DNA of 64,000 nt from an uncultured Bacteroidales bacterium (GTDB lineage: Bacteria; Bacteroidota; Bacteroidia; Bacteroidales; Bacteroidaceae). The position numbers were made by a program, and so were the translations under genes. Below the pieces are notes generated by a model, which did not search any database, had not been told where the DNA came from, and saw nothing but the letters and a program-made list of their open reading frames with translations. The stretch is from NCBI GenBank assembly GCA_902763865.1, contig CACWTR010000005.1, forward strand, positions 1-64,000, read 5' to 3'. Below, in pieces: positions 59,924 through 63,357 of the stretch; the stretch's first letter is position 1; the number at the start of each line of letters is the position of its first letter.

Positions 59924-59931
59924 TATCTTTG
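59924..59931 (+). promoter_or_regulatory. Promoter candidate for the CRISPR-omegaRNA-iscB transcript
   Basis: TATCTTTG matches the -7 consensus exactly and lies 69 bp before the first repeat. A 7-bp stem (TTGAAAT at 59935-59941 with ATTTCAA at 59946-59952) follows at the expected transcript start. The AT-rich sequence to 60000 would be the leader. No clear -33 TTTG is seen at the usual spacing. Confidence 0.5.
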
Positions 59932-60000
59932 CACTTGAAATCAAAATTTCAATCACTATAATCATTACGCCTATGAGAACAGACAATAAAATTAATGACT

Positions 60001-60363
60001 AATGTTTTTACCCACAAAAAACGCTGCCACAAACAGCATATACATCTACCCCGCTTTCACGTCAAGCATTGTGTTTACCCACAAAAATGCTGGCACTAAC
60101 AGCGCAGCCTCCGAGCGTCACGAACTAAGCCCATTGTGTTTACCCACAAAAATGCTGGCACAAACAGCGTTACCTTGTGCTCAACAGTAGCGCATTGATT
60201 GTGTTTACCCACAAAAATGCTGGCACTAACAGCGGCGGCAGCGACAATCTCCACATCGACCTATTGTGTTTACCCACAAAAATGCTGGCACTAACAGCCG
60301 TCATGCACATACAAACAATTAGCGAGTATTGTGTTTACCCACAAAAATGCTGGCACTAACAGC
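60001..60363 (+). CRISPR. CRISPR array: six repeats, five spacers, next to iscB
   Basis: The 36-bp repeat begins ATTGTGTTTACCCACAAAAA and ends TGCTGGCACTAACAGC. Copies start at 60068, 60133, 60198, 60263 and 60328, an exact 65-bp period; the copy at 60001-60037 is degenerate. Repeats 2, 4, 5 and 6 are identical; repeat 3 has one change (CACAAAC for CACTAAC), which is shared by repeat 1. Spacers are 30, 29, 29, 29 and 29 bp and unrelated to each other. The repeat can fold into two small hairpins, TTGTG/CACAA and GCTG/CAGC. The degenerate copy marks the left end as the older end. There is no cas1, cas2 or cas9 nearby; the last repeat abuts the omega-RNA region of iscB. Confidence 0.93.
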
Positions 60364-60605
60364 CTATAGTGAGTAAGCCGATTAGCCTCAGTCATTTAAA
60401 CATCATATCGAGAATATGAATATTGAATGAACTACGTTAGAAGTGAATGTATAGGCACCTTGAAATAGTCGTCCAAGTTTCAAGCTCTGCGGTCAGTGAT
60501 TAAAAGGAGCGAAAGCAACGGTGTTGCTGACAAGAAACCACTTTATAACATTGGCGATGGGCGCATAACGGGCATTAGCCCGACTTACAGTATTATAAAG
60601 AATAG
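60328..60605 (+). ncRNA. Omega-RNA (HEARO-type) scaffold of iscB, joined to the last CRISPR repeat
   Basis: IscB nucleases use a structured RNA encoded just before the gene, with the guide at its 5' end. Here 60362-60600 holds a row of perfect stems: GCCTATA/TATAGGC (60362-60368 with 60450-60456) enclosing TCATAT/ATATGA (60403-60408 with 60414-60419); CTTGAAA/TTTCAAG (60459-60465 with 60478-60484); GTCAG/CTGAC (60492-60496 with 60527-60531) around AGCAAC/GTTGCT, which compete for two bases; and CTTTATAA/TTATAAAG (60541-60548 with 60593-60600) enclosing CGGGC/GCCCG (60569-60573 with 60578-60582). The last stem ends 11 nt before the iscB ATG. The first stem uses the last two bases of repeat 6, so spacer 5 (60299-60327) would be the natural guide. 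The 5' boundary is inferred. Confidence 0.75.
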
Positions 60606-60611
60606 TCTCAT

Positions 60612-61865
60612 ATGGTATACGTATTAAATAAGAACAGTCAACCCTTGATGCCAACAGAGCGTCATGGCAAGGTTCGACGTATGCTTCGTGACGGCAAAGC
60701 TCACGTTGTACGACTTGAACCTTTTACCATTCAGTTGGACTATTCTTCTGGAGAAACAATCCAGGAAATATCACTCGGCATAGATGCTGGGAGCAAACAC
60801 ATAGGAGTTTCTGCTACGACTAAGAAGAAAGAACTCTTAGCTATTCAGGTTGAAGAACGAACGGATATAGTGGAGTTGTTGTCAACACGAAGGGAAGCGC
60901 GTCGAACTCGCCGCAATCGCAAGTTACGACACCGTGCGGCACGATTTGACAACCGCCGCCGCAAGGAAGGTTGGTTGACACCAAGTTCAGAAAACAGGGT
61001 AGTGGCACATCTGCGTATCATTCATCTTGTTAATTCCATACTTCCTATAGCAAAGACAACTATAGAAGTTGCACAATTTGATTCACAAAAAATTAAGAAT
61101 GATAAGATTTCTGGTGTTGAATATCAGCAAGGAGAACAGCTTGGTTTCTGGAACGTGAGGGAATATGTACTTGCAAGGGATGGTCATGTATGCCAGCATT
61201 GTAAAGGCAAGTCAAAGGACAAGATACTGAATGTCCACCACATTGAAGGCAGAAAGACAGGAAGTAATGCCCCTAACAATCTTATCACGCTGTGTAAGAC
61301 TTGCCACAAAGCATGCCATGATAGGGAAATAACCCTCAAAGTGCGAAGAGGTACAAGTCTGCGTGATGCTGCTGCAATGTCTATTATGCGATGGGAAGTC
61401 TATAATCGTGCTAAACAAGAATTCAAAAACGTGCATTTGACATACGGATATGTTACAAAGCATACTCGTATTCATAATAACATAGCCAAAACCCATTGTG
61501 CCGATGCACTTTGTATTTCAGGTAATGTGGGAGCTGAACGCCTCTCATGGTTTTATGGAGTTAGGCTGACAAGACGGCATAACCGTTCGTTGCATTTGTT
61601 CAAGCCAAAGAAAGGTGGAATTCGCCAAGGTAATTTGGCTCCTCACTGGATAGGCAAATCACGTCTACAACAATATGACTATGTGGAGTGGAATGGTCAG
61701 AGGGCTTTTGTTTCCGGTAGTTCGAATGGCAGACCATATCTAAAAAACTTTGACGATAAGTATATCATGACACCCAAAGCATCCGTCAACGCTAAGACGG
61801 TAAAGTTCATCAGGCGCAAGCGGGGGAGTATGATAATTGAGCAATTACTAAAAGACAGCATTTGA
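60612..61865 (+). CDS. iscB: IscB RNA-guided nuclease, CRISPR-associated
   Basis: 417 residues, the usual IscB size. The N-terminal PLMP domain is explicit (NKNSQPLMPTERHGKVRRML, PLMP at 11-14). RuvC-I has D58 in LGIDAGSKHIGV; an Arg-rich bridge helix spans about 93-118; RuvC-II has E152 in IEVAQFD. The HNH domain (about 175-245) has the CxxC pairs C194/C197 and C228/C231, H209-H210 in NVHHIEGR and the Asn in NAPNNLITLC. RuvC-III has H295 and D298 in THCADAL. The C-terminal 100 residues are the target-interaction region. All catalytic residues are present, so the nuclease should be active. It follows a CRISPR array and omega-RNA, and precedes an ApeA-like gene by 4 bp. No tnpA is in view. Confidence 0.95.
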   Translation: MVYVLNKNSQPLMPTERHGKVRRMLRDGKAHVVRLEPFTIQLDYSSGETIQEISLGIDAGSKHIGVSATTKKKELLAIQVEERTDIVELLSTRREARRTRRNRKLRHRAARFDNRRRKEGWLTPSSENRVVAHLRIIHLVNSILPIAKTTIEVAQFDSQKIKNDKISGVEYQQGEQLGFWNVREYVLARDGHVCQHCKGKSKDKILNVHHIEGRKTGSNAPNNLITLCKTCHKACHDREITLKVRRGTSLRDAAAMSIMRWEVYNRAKQEFKNVHLTYGYVTKHTRIHNNIAKTHCADALCISGNVGAERLSWFYGVRLTRRHNRSLHLFKPKKGGIRQGNLAPHWIGKSRLQQYDYVEWNGQRAFVSGSSNGRPYLKNFDDKYIMTPKASVNAKTVKFIRRKRGSMIIEQLLKDSI

Positions 61866-61869
61866 AGCA

Positions 61870-63357
61870 ATGAATACTATTAAACCTACAGACGCATACA
61901 AGTCTTTCCTTCACTTTATAAATCTTATTGAGAGCGACAATCCCACTTACACGATAGATTTCTTAAAAAAAGAAAGTTCGTTTTCTGTCGATGCCAAATT
62001 CAAAATTGTAGATAATGGAGATTACGAGCTGTCTTTCTCGACAAAAGAAGTCATTCCTCCCCAAACATTTCACAACTTCCTTACCATTATACAATCTGAA
62101 TTGTATAACATTGTGTTTGAGAATATCTATAACCAGCAAGTACAAATAAAGATAAGTAACTCTGAAAGTTCTGTAGAATATCGAATAACGACAAAATCCT
62201 TTCGCAGTACGATAGAAGACACTTTGGATGATACTTATTTTTGTTCATTTTTTAAATACGACCATAATGTGTTTAATCCAGATAAAACATGTATTTTAGG
62301 TTTCAGCCACAAACCTATTGAGATAAAAATAGAAGAGTGTGAACTAATAATCTTTTGGGGTGACAAGACAGCAACAGATGGCACTACTAAAGATGAAAGA
62401 TACCTAATGTTTTTTTCCAAGAACAAAACTAAACAAACAACATTCAACAGATTGGTTGATGCAATTAGAGTTACATGGGGATTAATTTCGGGGTATTATA
62501 TAGGAAAAAATGTGTATTATTTATCATGTAAGCCGGAATTAGGTTTGAGTGAATTGAACTTTTCCTATAATAACTTACAAGAGGAAATTATTACATATCG
62601 TGGGATGTTAGATTCAAAATTGTACGATAACATACCTGAAGATGAAACGCATCTTACGATTGTTGAGTTTGAACGCTTAGTCACTCTTTTTTATAACAAC
62701 GATTCTTTTCATAGGGCTGGATTATTTCTAATTCACGCAAGCAAAGATGTTGGCTTATCAAAAGGTGGAATGGCTGCTGTAGCATTAGAAACAATTACAG
62801 GAGAAATAGAAAGAAATGTAAACGCGAAGAAGAGAGGTGATACAAACGAGTTTAAATTGCCTGAAGCATTAAATAAAGAACTAGAAAATGTTATTACTCG
62901 ATTCAAAGAGGCAAATAAAATAACCGATAAGCAACAACAACACTACTTAAAGAAATTGGAGAATTTCTCAACTCCTTTTAACTCAGATAAACTATCCAAC
63001 CCGTTTAGACTACTTAAAATTACATTGTCTAAAACAGAAAAAGGCATCATTGAAAATAGAAACAAAATACTGCACGGCAGTTTACCTAAGAAGGGCAGAG
63101 GCTTAGAGTTCGTTGCTAATCTAAATGATGACGAACTTGTATTTTACGTATCCAATAAGTTAATTATGCTTTGTACGATGTTGTTATTCAGAATGGCCGA
63201 CAAAAATATCGACAAACGCATCAATGACTGGGGGGTAACCATTATTGTTAAGAAACACTTGATTGAGAAGGGAAAATATATAGGGAATGGCGGAATAAAA
63301 CATCGAATGATATCTGAAATGAATCCAATGGAAGATTCACCAGAATGGCTGGCATAG
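61870..63357 (+). CDS. ApeA-like protein with C-terminal HEPN domain
   Basis: 495 residues. The N-terminal part (about 1-290) is beta-rich with no signal peptide and resembles the N-terminal domain of ApeA-type anti-phage proteins (SFSVDAKFKIVDNGDYELSF, LVDAIRVTWGLISGYYIGKN). The C-terminal part is helical and ends in a HEPN domain with the RNase motif Rx4H: R397 and H402 in IIENRNKILHGSLP. HEPN proteins of this class act as RNases in defence. The start lies 4 bp after the iscB stop, so the two are almost certainly one operon. It could be an abortive-infection effector or an independent defence gene; the link to IscB is inference. Assignment to ApeA is from motif and length. Confidence 0.8.
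   Translation: MNTIKPTDAYKSFLHFINLIESDNPTYTIDFLKKESSFSVDAKFKIVDNGDYELSFSTKEVIPPQTFHNFLTIIQSELYNIVFENIYNQQVQIKISNSESSVEYRITTKSFRSTIEDTLDDTYFCSFFKYDHNVFNPDKTCILGFSHKPIEIKIEECELIIFWGDKTATDGTTKDERYLMFFSKNKTKQTTFNRLVDAIRVTWGLISGYYIGKNVYYLSCKPELGLSELNFSYNNLQEEIITYRGMLDSKLYDNIPEDETHLTIVEFERLVTLFYNNDSFHRAGLFLIHASKDVGLSKGGMAAVALETITGEIERNVNAKKRGDTNEFKLPEALNKELENVITRFKEANKITDKQQQHYLKKLENFSTPFNSDKLSNPFRLLKITLSKTEKGIIENRNKILHGSLPKKGRGLEFVANLNDDELVFYVSNKLIMLCTMLLFRMADKNIDKRINDWGVTIIVKKHLIEKGKYIGNGGIKHRMISEMNPMEDSPEWLA

Follow-up and report, generated by a model that had tools for sequence, protein, structure and literature searches.

Do the spacers of a CRISPR-like array guide the IscB nuclease that is encoded next to it? 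The IscB family is thought to include the ancestor of Cas9, and CRISPR-associated IscB loci with an array beside iscB were reportedly described by Altae-Tran et al. in 2021. In the window, by which we mean the whole analyzed stretch of 64,000 nucleotides, six repeats and five spacers at 60001–60363 adjoin an IscB omega-RNA and an intact iscB gene. We read this locus as a CRISPR-associated IscB in which the last repeat is the predicted 5′ end of the omega-RNA and the spacers are likely exchangeable guides. Judging from the sequence, we would put the probability of this reading at about 0.68.

Anatomy of the array and the nuclease

Two related loci provide the basis for comparison. Locus L029/L003, from a genome of the window's genus (G030), encodes an IscB that is 83% identical to that of the window and contains four repeats and three spacers. 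Locus L007, from a MAG of Prevotella sp. RGIG5145 (sheep abomasum), encodes an IscB that is 88% identical and contains two repeats and one spacer. The window features are listed below; "three loci" refers to the window, L007, and L029.

59924–59931, forward strand: promoter-like box TATCTTTG of the form TAnnTTTG, aligned and kept in all three loci
59932–60000, forward strand: leader, with the motif GCyTATGAGAA (59969–59979) common to all three loci
60001–60037, forward strand: repeat 1, leader-proximal and divergent, without a spacer on its 5′ side, 36 or 37 nt long according to which base is taken as the first
60038–60067, forward strand: spacer 1, 30 nt
60068–60103, forward strand: repeat 2, 36 nt
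60104–60132, forward strand: spacer 2, 29 nt
60133–60168, forward strand: repeat 3, 36 nt, one change
60169–60197, forward strand: spacer 3, 29 nt
60198–60233, forward strand: repeat 4, 36 nt
60234–60262, forward strand: spacer 4, 29 nt
60263–60298, forward strand: repeat 5, 36 nt
60299–60327, forward strand: spacer 5, 29 nt, immediately next to the last repeat and scaffold on their 5′ side, predicted to act as guide in cis
60328–60363, forward strand: repeat 6, 36 nt, predicted to provide the omega-RNA guide adaptor with its 5′ strand and small hairpin
60331–60569, forward strand: match to HEARO / IscB omega-RNA (RF02033), E = 1e-14, 73.1 bits (gathering score of 83 not reached)
60373–60382, forward strand: anti-repeat GTAAGCCGAT, predicted to supply the 3′ side of the guide-adaptor stem through 10 pairs with ATTG(T)GTTTAC in the repeat
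60569–60582, forward strand: terminal hairpin CGGGC-ATTA-GCCCG before iscB, present in the minimum free energy (MFE) fold
60612–61865, forward strand: iscB, 417 aa, with PLMP motif, RuvC and HNH
61870–63357, forward strand: ORF of 495 aa, 4 nt behind iscB, a neighbor outside the conserved unit

We take TAnnTTTG to be the −7-type promoter consensus of Bacteroidota. The box reads TATATTTG in L007 and L029, and no −33 box was identified at the consensus spacing. The initial annotation had described six repeats with five unrelated spacers of 29–30 nt, and these are present, with five repeats of 36 nt and a divergent first one. The repeats are regularly placed and the spacers, which differ little in length, are unrelated, as is typical of a CRISPR array: any two of 11 spacers (five from the window, one from L007, three from L029, and two from L083, a phage-contig locus discussed below) agree at no more than 14 positions in ungapped comparison. 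Repeats 2, 4, 5, and 6 of the window are identical. Within one array, the repeats vary together; four of the six window repeats end in GGCACTAACAGC, and all four repeats of L029 end in GTCATAAACAGC.

The nuclease gene, described at the outset as intact with RuvC, HNH, and PLMP, has kept this description. Its 417-aa product matches the NCBIfam model guided_IscB (NF040563) with 349.9 bits at a cut-off of 175, as an OMEGA-IscB protein should, and contains the Pfam domains RRXRR and HNH. The best PDB sequence matches of the protein are solved IscB chains, and Cas9 models gave no match to this effector. Residues D58, E152, H209/H210, H295, and D298, which we presume to be catalytic, do not vary across an aligned set of 19 sequences, that of the window among them. 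Comparison with L007 gives a dN/dS of 0.10 (dS is saturated in the other pairs), and by this measure iscB is under purifying selection. The structure model of IscB is poor (pLDDT 49), and we give no weight to the Foldseek list obtained with it. The predicted fold of the 495-aa neighbor is good (pLDDT 84), and a PDB search with it gave nothing at E 0.001; different genes occupy its place in L007 and L029.

The last repeat and the guide adaptor

The array had been proposed to run directly into a structured RNA. This adjacency holds, but the two elements do not merely adjoin: the HEARO match opens inside the last repeat, so that repeat and omega-RNA overlap. The covariance-model check suggested for this region returned a match of low E-value that stays below the gathering score; it is not reported at the gathering threshold and appears with E-value reporting. 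With this qualification, the locus has an omega-RNA upstream of iscB as in OMEGA-IscB systems. Such systems have just one guide, at the scaffold's 5′ end; the window has five spacers in an array and, at this locus, one scaffold. The same arrangement is found in L007 (70.3 bits) and L003 (64.0 bits). Five single-guide IscB loci from Bacillota or viral contigs reach HEARO scores of 120–150 bits; those of the nearer single-guide relatives L130 and L050 (IscB 61% and 62% identical) are also low, at 71.7 and 69.

In ordinary IscB loci, both those that we compared and as described in PMC9640706, the omega-RNA opens with the guide-adaptor stem immediately behind the guide. The 36-nt repeat of the window opens with the candidate 5′ strand of such a stem (ATTG, a bulged T, GTTTAC) and contains a small GCTG...CAGC hairpin. 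The complementary anti-repeat sits after the last repeat, in one copy at the locus. All ten pairs are standard in three of three loci; since the stem sequence is identical in them, it provides no evidence of covariation. The window contains the anti-repeat 10-mer three times, where 0.09 occurrences would be expected. We rejected the other two copies (20179, reverse strand; 63549, forward strand) as scaffolds, as their surroundings bear no similarity to the scaffold.

The ATTG at the base of the stem is kept in nine of nine repeats that follow a spacer and is altered in three of three first repeats, which follow none. Repeat 1 of the window begins with AATG, which breaks the adaptor-stem pairing. 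For independent repeats, this pattern would have odds of 1 in 220; repeats of one array are not independent, and the figure is indicative only. One would expect such a pattern if the adaptor stem were needed only by repeats with a spacer on their 5′ side.

Folding calculations address which repeat the anti-repeat may pair with. The energy of the repeat:scaffold duplex is not unusual, with 168, 342, and 119 of 1000 shuffles being as good in the three loci, and the best duplex in L007 is a different one. In the single-sequence MFE structure of the last repeat plus scaffold, the hairpin of the repeat itself takes the place of the adaptor stem. In the ensemble fold of 59930–60611, the anti-repeat forms 7.31 expected pairs out of 10 with the last repeat and at most 0.30 with every other one. 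Because this pairing goes to the last repeat, spacer 5 is favored as the guide, and folding lends spacers 1–4 no support.

This almost exclusive pairing is also what one would predict if the last spacer were the sole guide, as in ordinary omega-RNA, and the upstream units a reservoir from which recombination between repeats swaps the spacer beside the scaffold. The single spacer of L007 and the single scaffold of the window fit this explanation as well. It does not readily explain why the adaptor-stem bases are kept in every repeat that follows a spacer, even though recent copying of repeats could have the same effect, and we consider it unlikely.

If the spacers are exchangeable guides, a single transcript from the promoter-like box would span the array, the scaffold, and the iscB mRNA. 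Spacer 5 would be the default guide in cis, and spacers 1–4 would come into use through pairing of their own repeats with that one anti-repeat. This second mode would need processing or help from proteins, and may proceed either by processing to a crRNA plus a tracr-like scaffold or by looping-out of the intervening sequence. The predicted IscB would cut DNA that matches the 3′ part of the spacer, probably in invading elements.

Spacer differences between loci and a possible source of spacers

The three related loci contain nine spacers, none of which is common to them, and yet all three have kept the promoter-like box, the leader, the repeat, the scaffold, and iscB. The homology spans from the promoter-like box to the end of iscB; the flanks beyond differ, with the exception of two short stretches about 4 kb downstream of iscB that are common to the window and L007. 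That the spacers are variable, as opposed to a fixed minisatellite, is borne out by this comparison: since the relatives share no spacer with the window, the array is not a fixed minisatellite. A variant of that idea would see in the array iterated transposon left ends, or a minisatellite formed by slippage, instead of a store of guides. The repeat does lie in the adaptor region of the omega-RNA, which PMC9581776 ties to IS200/IS605 mobility. The regular unit length, the lack of relation among spacers both within and between loci, and a spacer length equal to that of type II-like arrays in the genus make this very improbable.

A search of 139 genomes of the window's genus missed the IscB of L007, which it would have matched; L007 therefore belongs to another genus. 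As its IscB is nevertheless nearer to that of the window than is the IscB of G030, we suggest that the whole array–scaffold–iscB unit moved horizontally. A comparison of the left and right ends of IscB as a mobile unit identified no transposon ends.

Searched against phages and plasmids with E allowed up to 10, the window array matched nothing. Among the 139 genomes of the genus, 137 match it somewhere when E may be as high as 5; once the IscB arrays of G000 and G030 are set aside, these are at best short matches with E 0.025 or worse. The viral contigs contain no exact copy of a 22-mer of spacer 5, a 20-mer of spacer 4, or a 19-mer of spacer 2 (0 each), and a 21-mer of L029 spacer 1 gave 0 matches. 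For the L029 array, we judged as chance the matches in 12 phage records (E 3 or worse), in 21 plasmid records (E 0.2 or worse), and in eight genomes of the genus besides G000 and G030 (pieces of 19–33 nt, E 0.0016–0.013). The 11 spacers yielded short matches only, apart from themselves, in the collected loci (0.9 Mb). Matches of spacer 4 at 20 of 21 nt in G035, G026, and G085 have 7–8 mismatches over the whole spacer and were likewise judged to be chance; in two of these three genomes, the longest frame displayed encodes one and the same protein.

The initial annotation had stated that the locus has no cas genes. This statement stands for the two families searched: searches for Cas1 (PF01867) in G000, G030, G218, and the contig of L083 gave no hit (0 of 4), nor did those for Cas2 of PF09827, the only Cas2 family searched, in G000, G030, and G218 (0 of 3). 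The assembly of the window is 84% complete, which bears on these absences.

Cas1 is present in 44 of the 139 genomes of the genus, and we took one Cas1 neighborhood from each of 14 of these. In eight of the 14 Cas1-side arrays, the repeats measure 36 or 37 nt and follow the pattern GTTGTGGTTTGATG...ACAAC, with GTTGTGGTTTGATGTAGG in place of GTTGTGGTTTGATG in G110. The spacers of these arrays, among the printed intervals, are mostly 29–30 nt long, the exceptions being longer gaps as well in G112 and one of 31 in G080. Two of the eight were checked, and both are accompanied by Cas9 and by type II Cas1 and Cas2. The other six comprise three arrays with 47-nt repeats, two of type V-A-like and one of type I-C-like form, labels that we assume from the form of the repeat. 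Compared with the consensus of type II-like repeats from the genus, the IscB repeats have the same base at 17–19 of 36 positions, a likeness that dinucleotide shuffles seldom reach (p 0.0008–0.009 ungapped, 0.0025–0.021 gapped); it lies mostly in the first nine bases, and positions 10–36 alone are not significant (p 0.06–0.25).

Since both the ruler and the start of the repeat are alike, we suggest that the array was built by type II Cas1–Cas2, either acting in trans or present in a former host. The spacers would then have been acquired with the ruler of the type II systems of the genus, either from Cas1–Cas2 acting in trans or in an ancestor. The same resemblance in repeat length, spacer length, and first nine bases might be taken to mean that the array is an orphan of another CRISPR-Cas system that came to lie beside iscB by chance. 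Against this stand the position of the last repeat within the HEARO match, the conservation of the unit around iscB in three genomes with different surroundings, and the similar layout of L083, which together render it extremely improbable.

The leader-proximal repeat is divergent in three of three loci, unlike in arrays that acquire spacers at the leader end. As this is the repeat that uptake would copy, its divergence counts against ongoing uptake. It would also suit a decaying remnant, that is, a CRISPR-IscB that acquired spacers in the past and no longer uses them, as would the negative searches for Cas1 in G000, G030, and G218 and for spacer targets. The dN/dS of 0.10 against L007, the invariance of the putative catalytic residues, and the near identity of repeats 2–6 speak against decay, and we regard this explanation as quite improbable.

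IscB arrays and the origin of Cas9

An exact 20-mer of the window repeat is absent from the viral contigs (0 matches). The IscB protein finds matches at E 0.001 in 5 of 200 relatives and in 4 of 139 genomes of the genus, among which only those in G000 and G030 exceed short weak matches. At E 1e-30, it is found in 3 of 399 genomes of the family (G000, G030, and a partial one in G485), in 1 of 393 of the order (that of the window itself), and in 1 of 299 of the genus of G218 (G218 itself). The array script was run on 104 IscB loci, 97 of them with at least 500 nt upstream, including the window and several loci from the same contigs; 80 of 94 viral IscB loci were kept. The script flagged the window, L029, and L083 as arrays, and the array of L007 was recognized by eye. 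A 16-nt pair in L012, also flagged, was judged to be chance. Ordinary IscB loci have one adaptor stem and no array, as read by eye in L130 and L050. That CRISPR-linked IscB is rare, as had been asserted, is a statement about the collections searched.

L083 (IMGVR_UViG_3300032007_000052) is a phage contig with three identical 36-nt repeats and two 30-nt spacers, in which the HEARO match begins at the last repeat. GUUUUG, the first six bases of its repeat, and CAAAGC immediately downstream of the last repeat could form a stem, for which the ensemble expects 2.92 of 6 pairs; the MFE structure prefers a hairpin inside the repeat. This repeat differs from that of the window and agrees with the type II-like repeats of the genus at 13–16 of 36 positions, mostly not significantly. 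Our IscB tree has 96 rows, made up of 80 of 105 IscB loci and 16 of the 120 homologues listed among 7999 scored, for which we had protein sequences without genomic context. Array status changes twice on this tree among the locus rows, or four times if the 16 homologues without context are scored as array-free, and no strongly supported fork contains L083. Two origins of IscB arrays are thus likely, though not proven.

The locus shares features with several known systems. As in OMEGA-IscB systems such as OgeuIscB (PMC9640706), the protein has PLMP, RuvC, and HNH, the omega-RNA lies directly upstream, and a guide stands at its 5′ end; unlike in these systems, which have one adaptor stem per locus, the window has a spacer array in which the adaptor strand is repeated. 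The spacer-repeat orientation, the 36-nt repeats, and the spacers of 29–30 nt are as in type II CRISPR-Cas9, the lengths being those of type II arrays of the genus. A candidate repeat:anti-repeat pairing may be a further likeness; it comprises 10 invariant pairs in three of three loci with duplex energies that many shuffles reach. In contrast to type II, the effector is IscB, the scaffold is fused in cis to the last repeat, and Cas1 and Cas2 PF09827 were not found. Type II-D Cas9 (Cas9d) effectors are also compact, near IscB, and mostly without adaptation genes (PMC9755519, PMC11706934), and a shared adaptation module has been reported for type II-D Cas9 (PMC12669027); with 417 aa, a PLMP motif, and a HEARO-type RNA, the window system differs from Cas9d, which has about 600–970 aa (PMC11706934).

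Structural work has equated the repeat:anti-repeat duplex of Cas9 with the guide-adaptor hairpin of IscB (PMC9640706), and part of the omega-RNA guide adaptor has been proposed to have become the CRISPR array or its repeats en route to Cas9 (PMC9581776). The anatomy of the window appears to be as PMC9581776 predicts, and the link to the origin of Cas9 drawn by the initial annotation fits a repeat that corresponds to the 5′ half of the omega-RNA guide adaptor. There is a parallel in TnpB, the ancestor of Cas12, for which PMC12669027 counts about 50 events of association with arrays and/or adaptation modules. The literature, mostly searched without full texts, yielded no description of the repeat/anti-repeat anatomy of IscB arrays. 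This kind of locus is known; new here, unless the anatomy is already contained in the 2021 IscB paper, are the adaptor-strand repeat in three genomes, the different spacers, and the type II ruler of the genus.

A bolder interpretation, doubtful but conceivable, is that the locus replays in the present day the birth of Cas9 immunity. The adaptor strand would have turned into a type II-like repeat, type II Cas1–Cas2 (in trans or in a past host) would have supplied the spacers, and the scaffold of the last repeat would serve as a cis-tracrRNA for all of them, an arrangement that would have arisen at least twice, in Bacteroidota and in the IscB of a phage contig.

The step from adaptor to repeat inferred in PMC9581776 may be readable in the DNA of the three related loci and of a distant phage contig, and IscB relatives that have no array are available for comparison. 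These loci make the transition from OMEGA to CRISPR testable: which of the spacers are used, whether one scaffold in cis serves several repeats, and whether resident type II Cas1–Cas2 feeds an IscB array. An IscB array with swappable guides may show how Cas9 immunity began.

Further IscB loci

On a viral contig (L027, 3988-9837), a ROOL RNA, a tRNA, an IscB locus with its HEARO omega-RNA (Rfam RF02033) and a RAGATH-18 RNA all lie inside 6 kb. A single Clostridiales MAG (JAISZB01 contigs) carries 13 iscB-related loci (L010, L011 and L016-L026), some of them truncated by contig ends. Judged by eye, the region upstream of these genes is of the single-guide type and HEARO-like in most loci. Perhaps these are ordinary IscB elements that multiplied in a recent burst. 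In genome G485, from the window's family, an incomplete iscB (protein 67% identical) lies where a contig ends (L048). Opposite this gene stands an AAA-type ATPase gene, followed by a gene of the defence-island kind, both named by eye.

A possible second IscB element at L083

In the stretch 2304-2785, upstream of its CRISPR array, the distant phage-contig locus L083 contains an additional HEARO match. This match is followed by the initial codons of an apparent second iscB, truncated by the first repeat of the array. The layout looks as if one IscB element had been inserted into another.

Genes neighbouring the IscB unit

Both genomes of the window's genus that carry the IscB unit encode HIRAN-domain proteins downstream of it, on the opposite strand:

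L030 5490-6518, opposite strand: HIRAN-domain protein
L029 17129-18451, opposite strand: HIRAN-domain protein, match slightly below the Pfam cut-off

Directly behind iscB, the next gene follows after 4-14 nt in the window, in L029 (same genus) and in L007 (sheep-abomasum Prevotella MAG), and this gene is a different one in each of the three loci:

Window 61870-63357: gene for a 495-aa protein
L029 16131-16898: gene for a CAP12/TIR protein, PADLOC candidate PDC-S35
L007 6269-6622: gene with a weak Trypco2 match

The 495-aa protein has no Pfam match above cut-off and no PADLOC match; its family search gave 18 proteins, the query counted. The three genes may encode exchangeable, defence-type partners.
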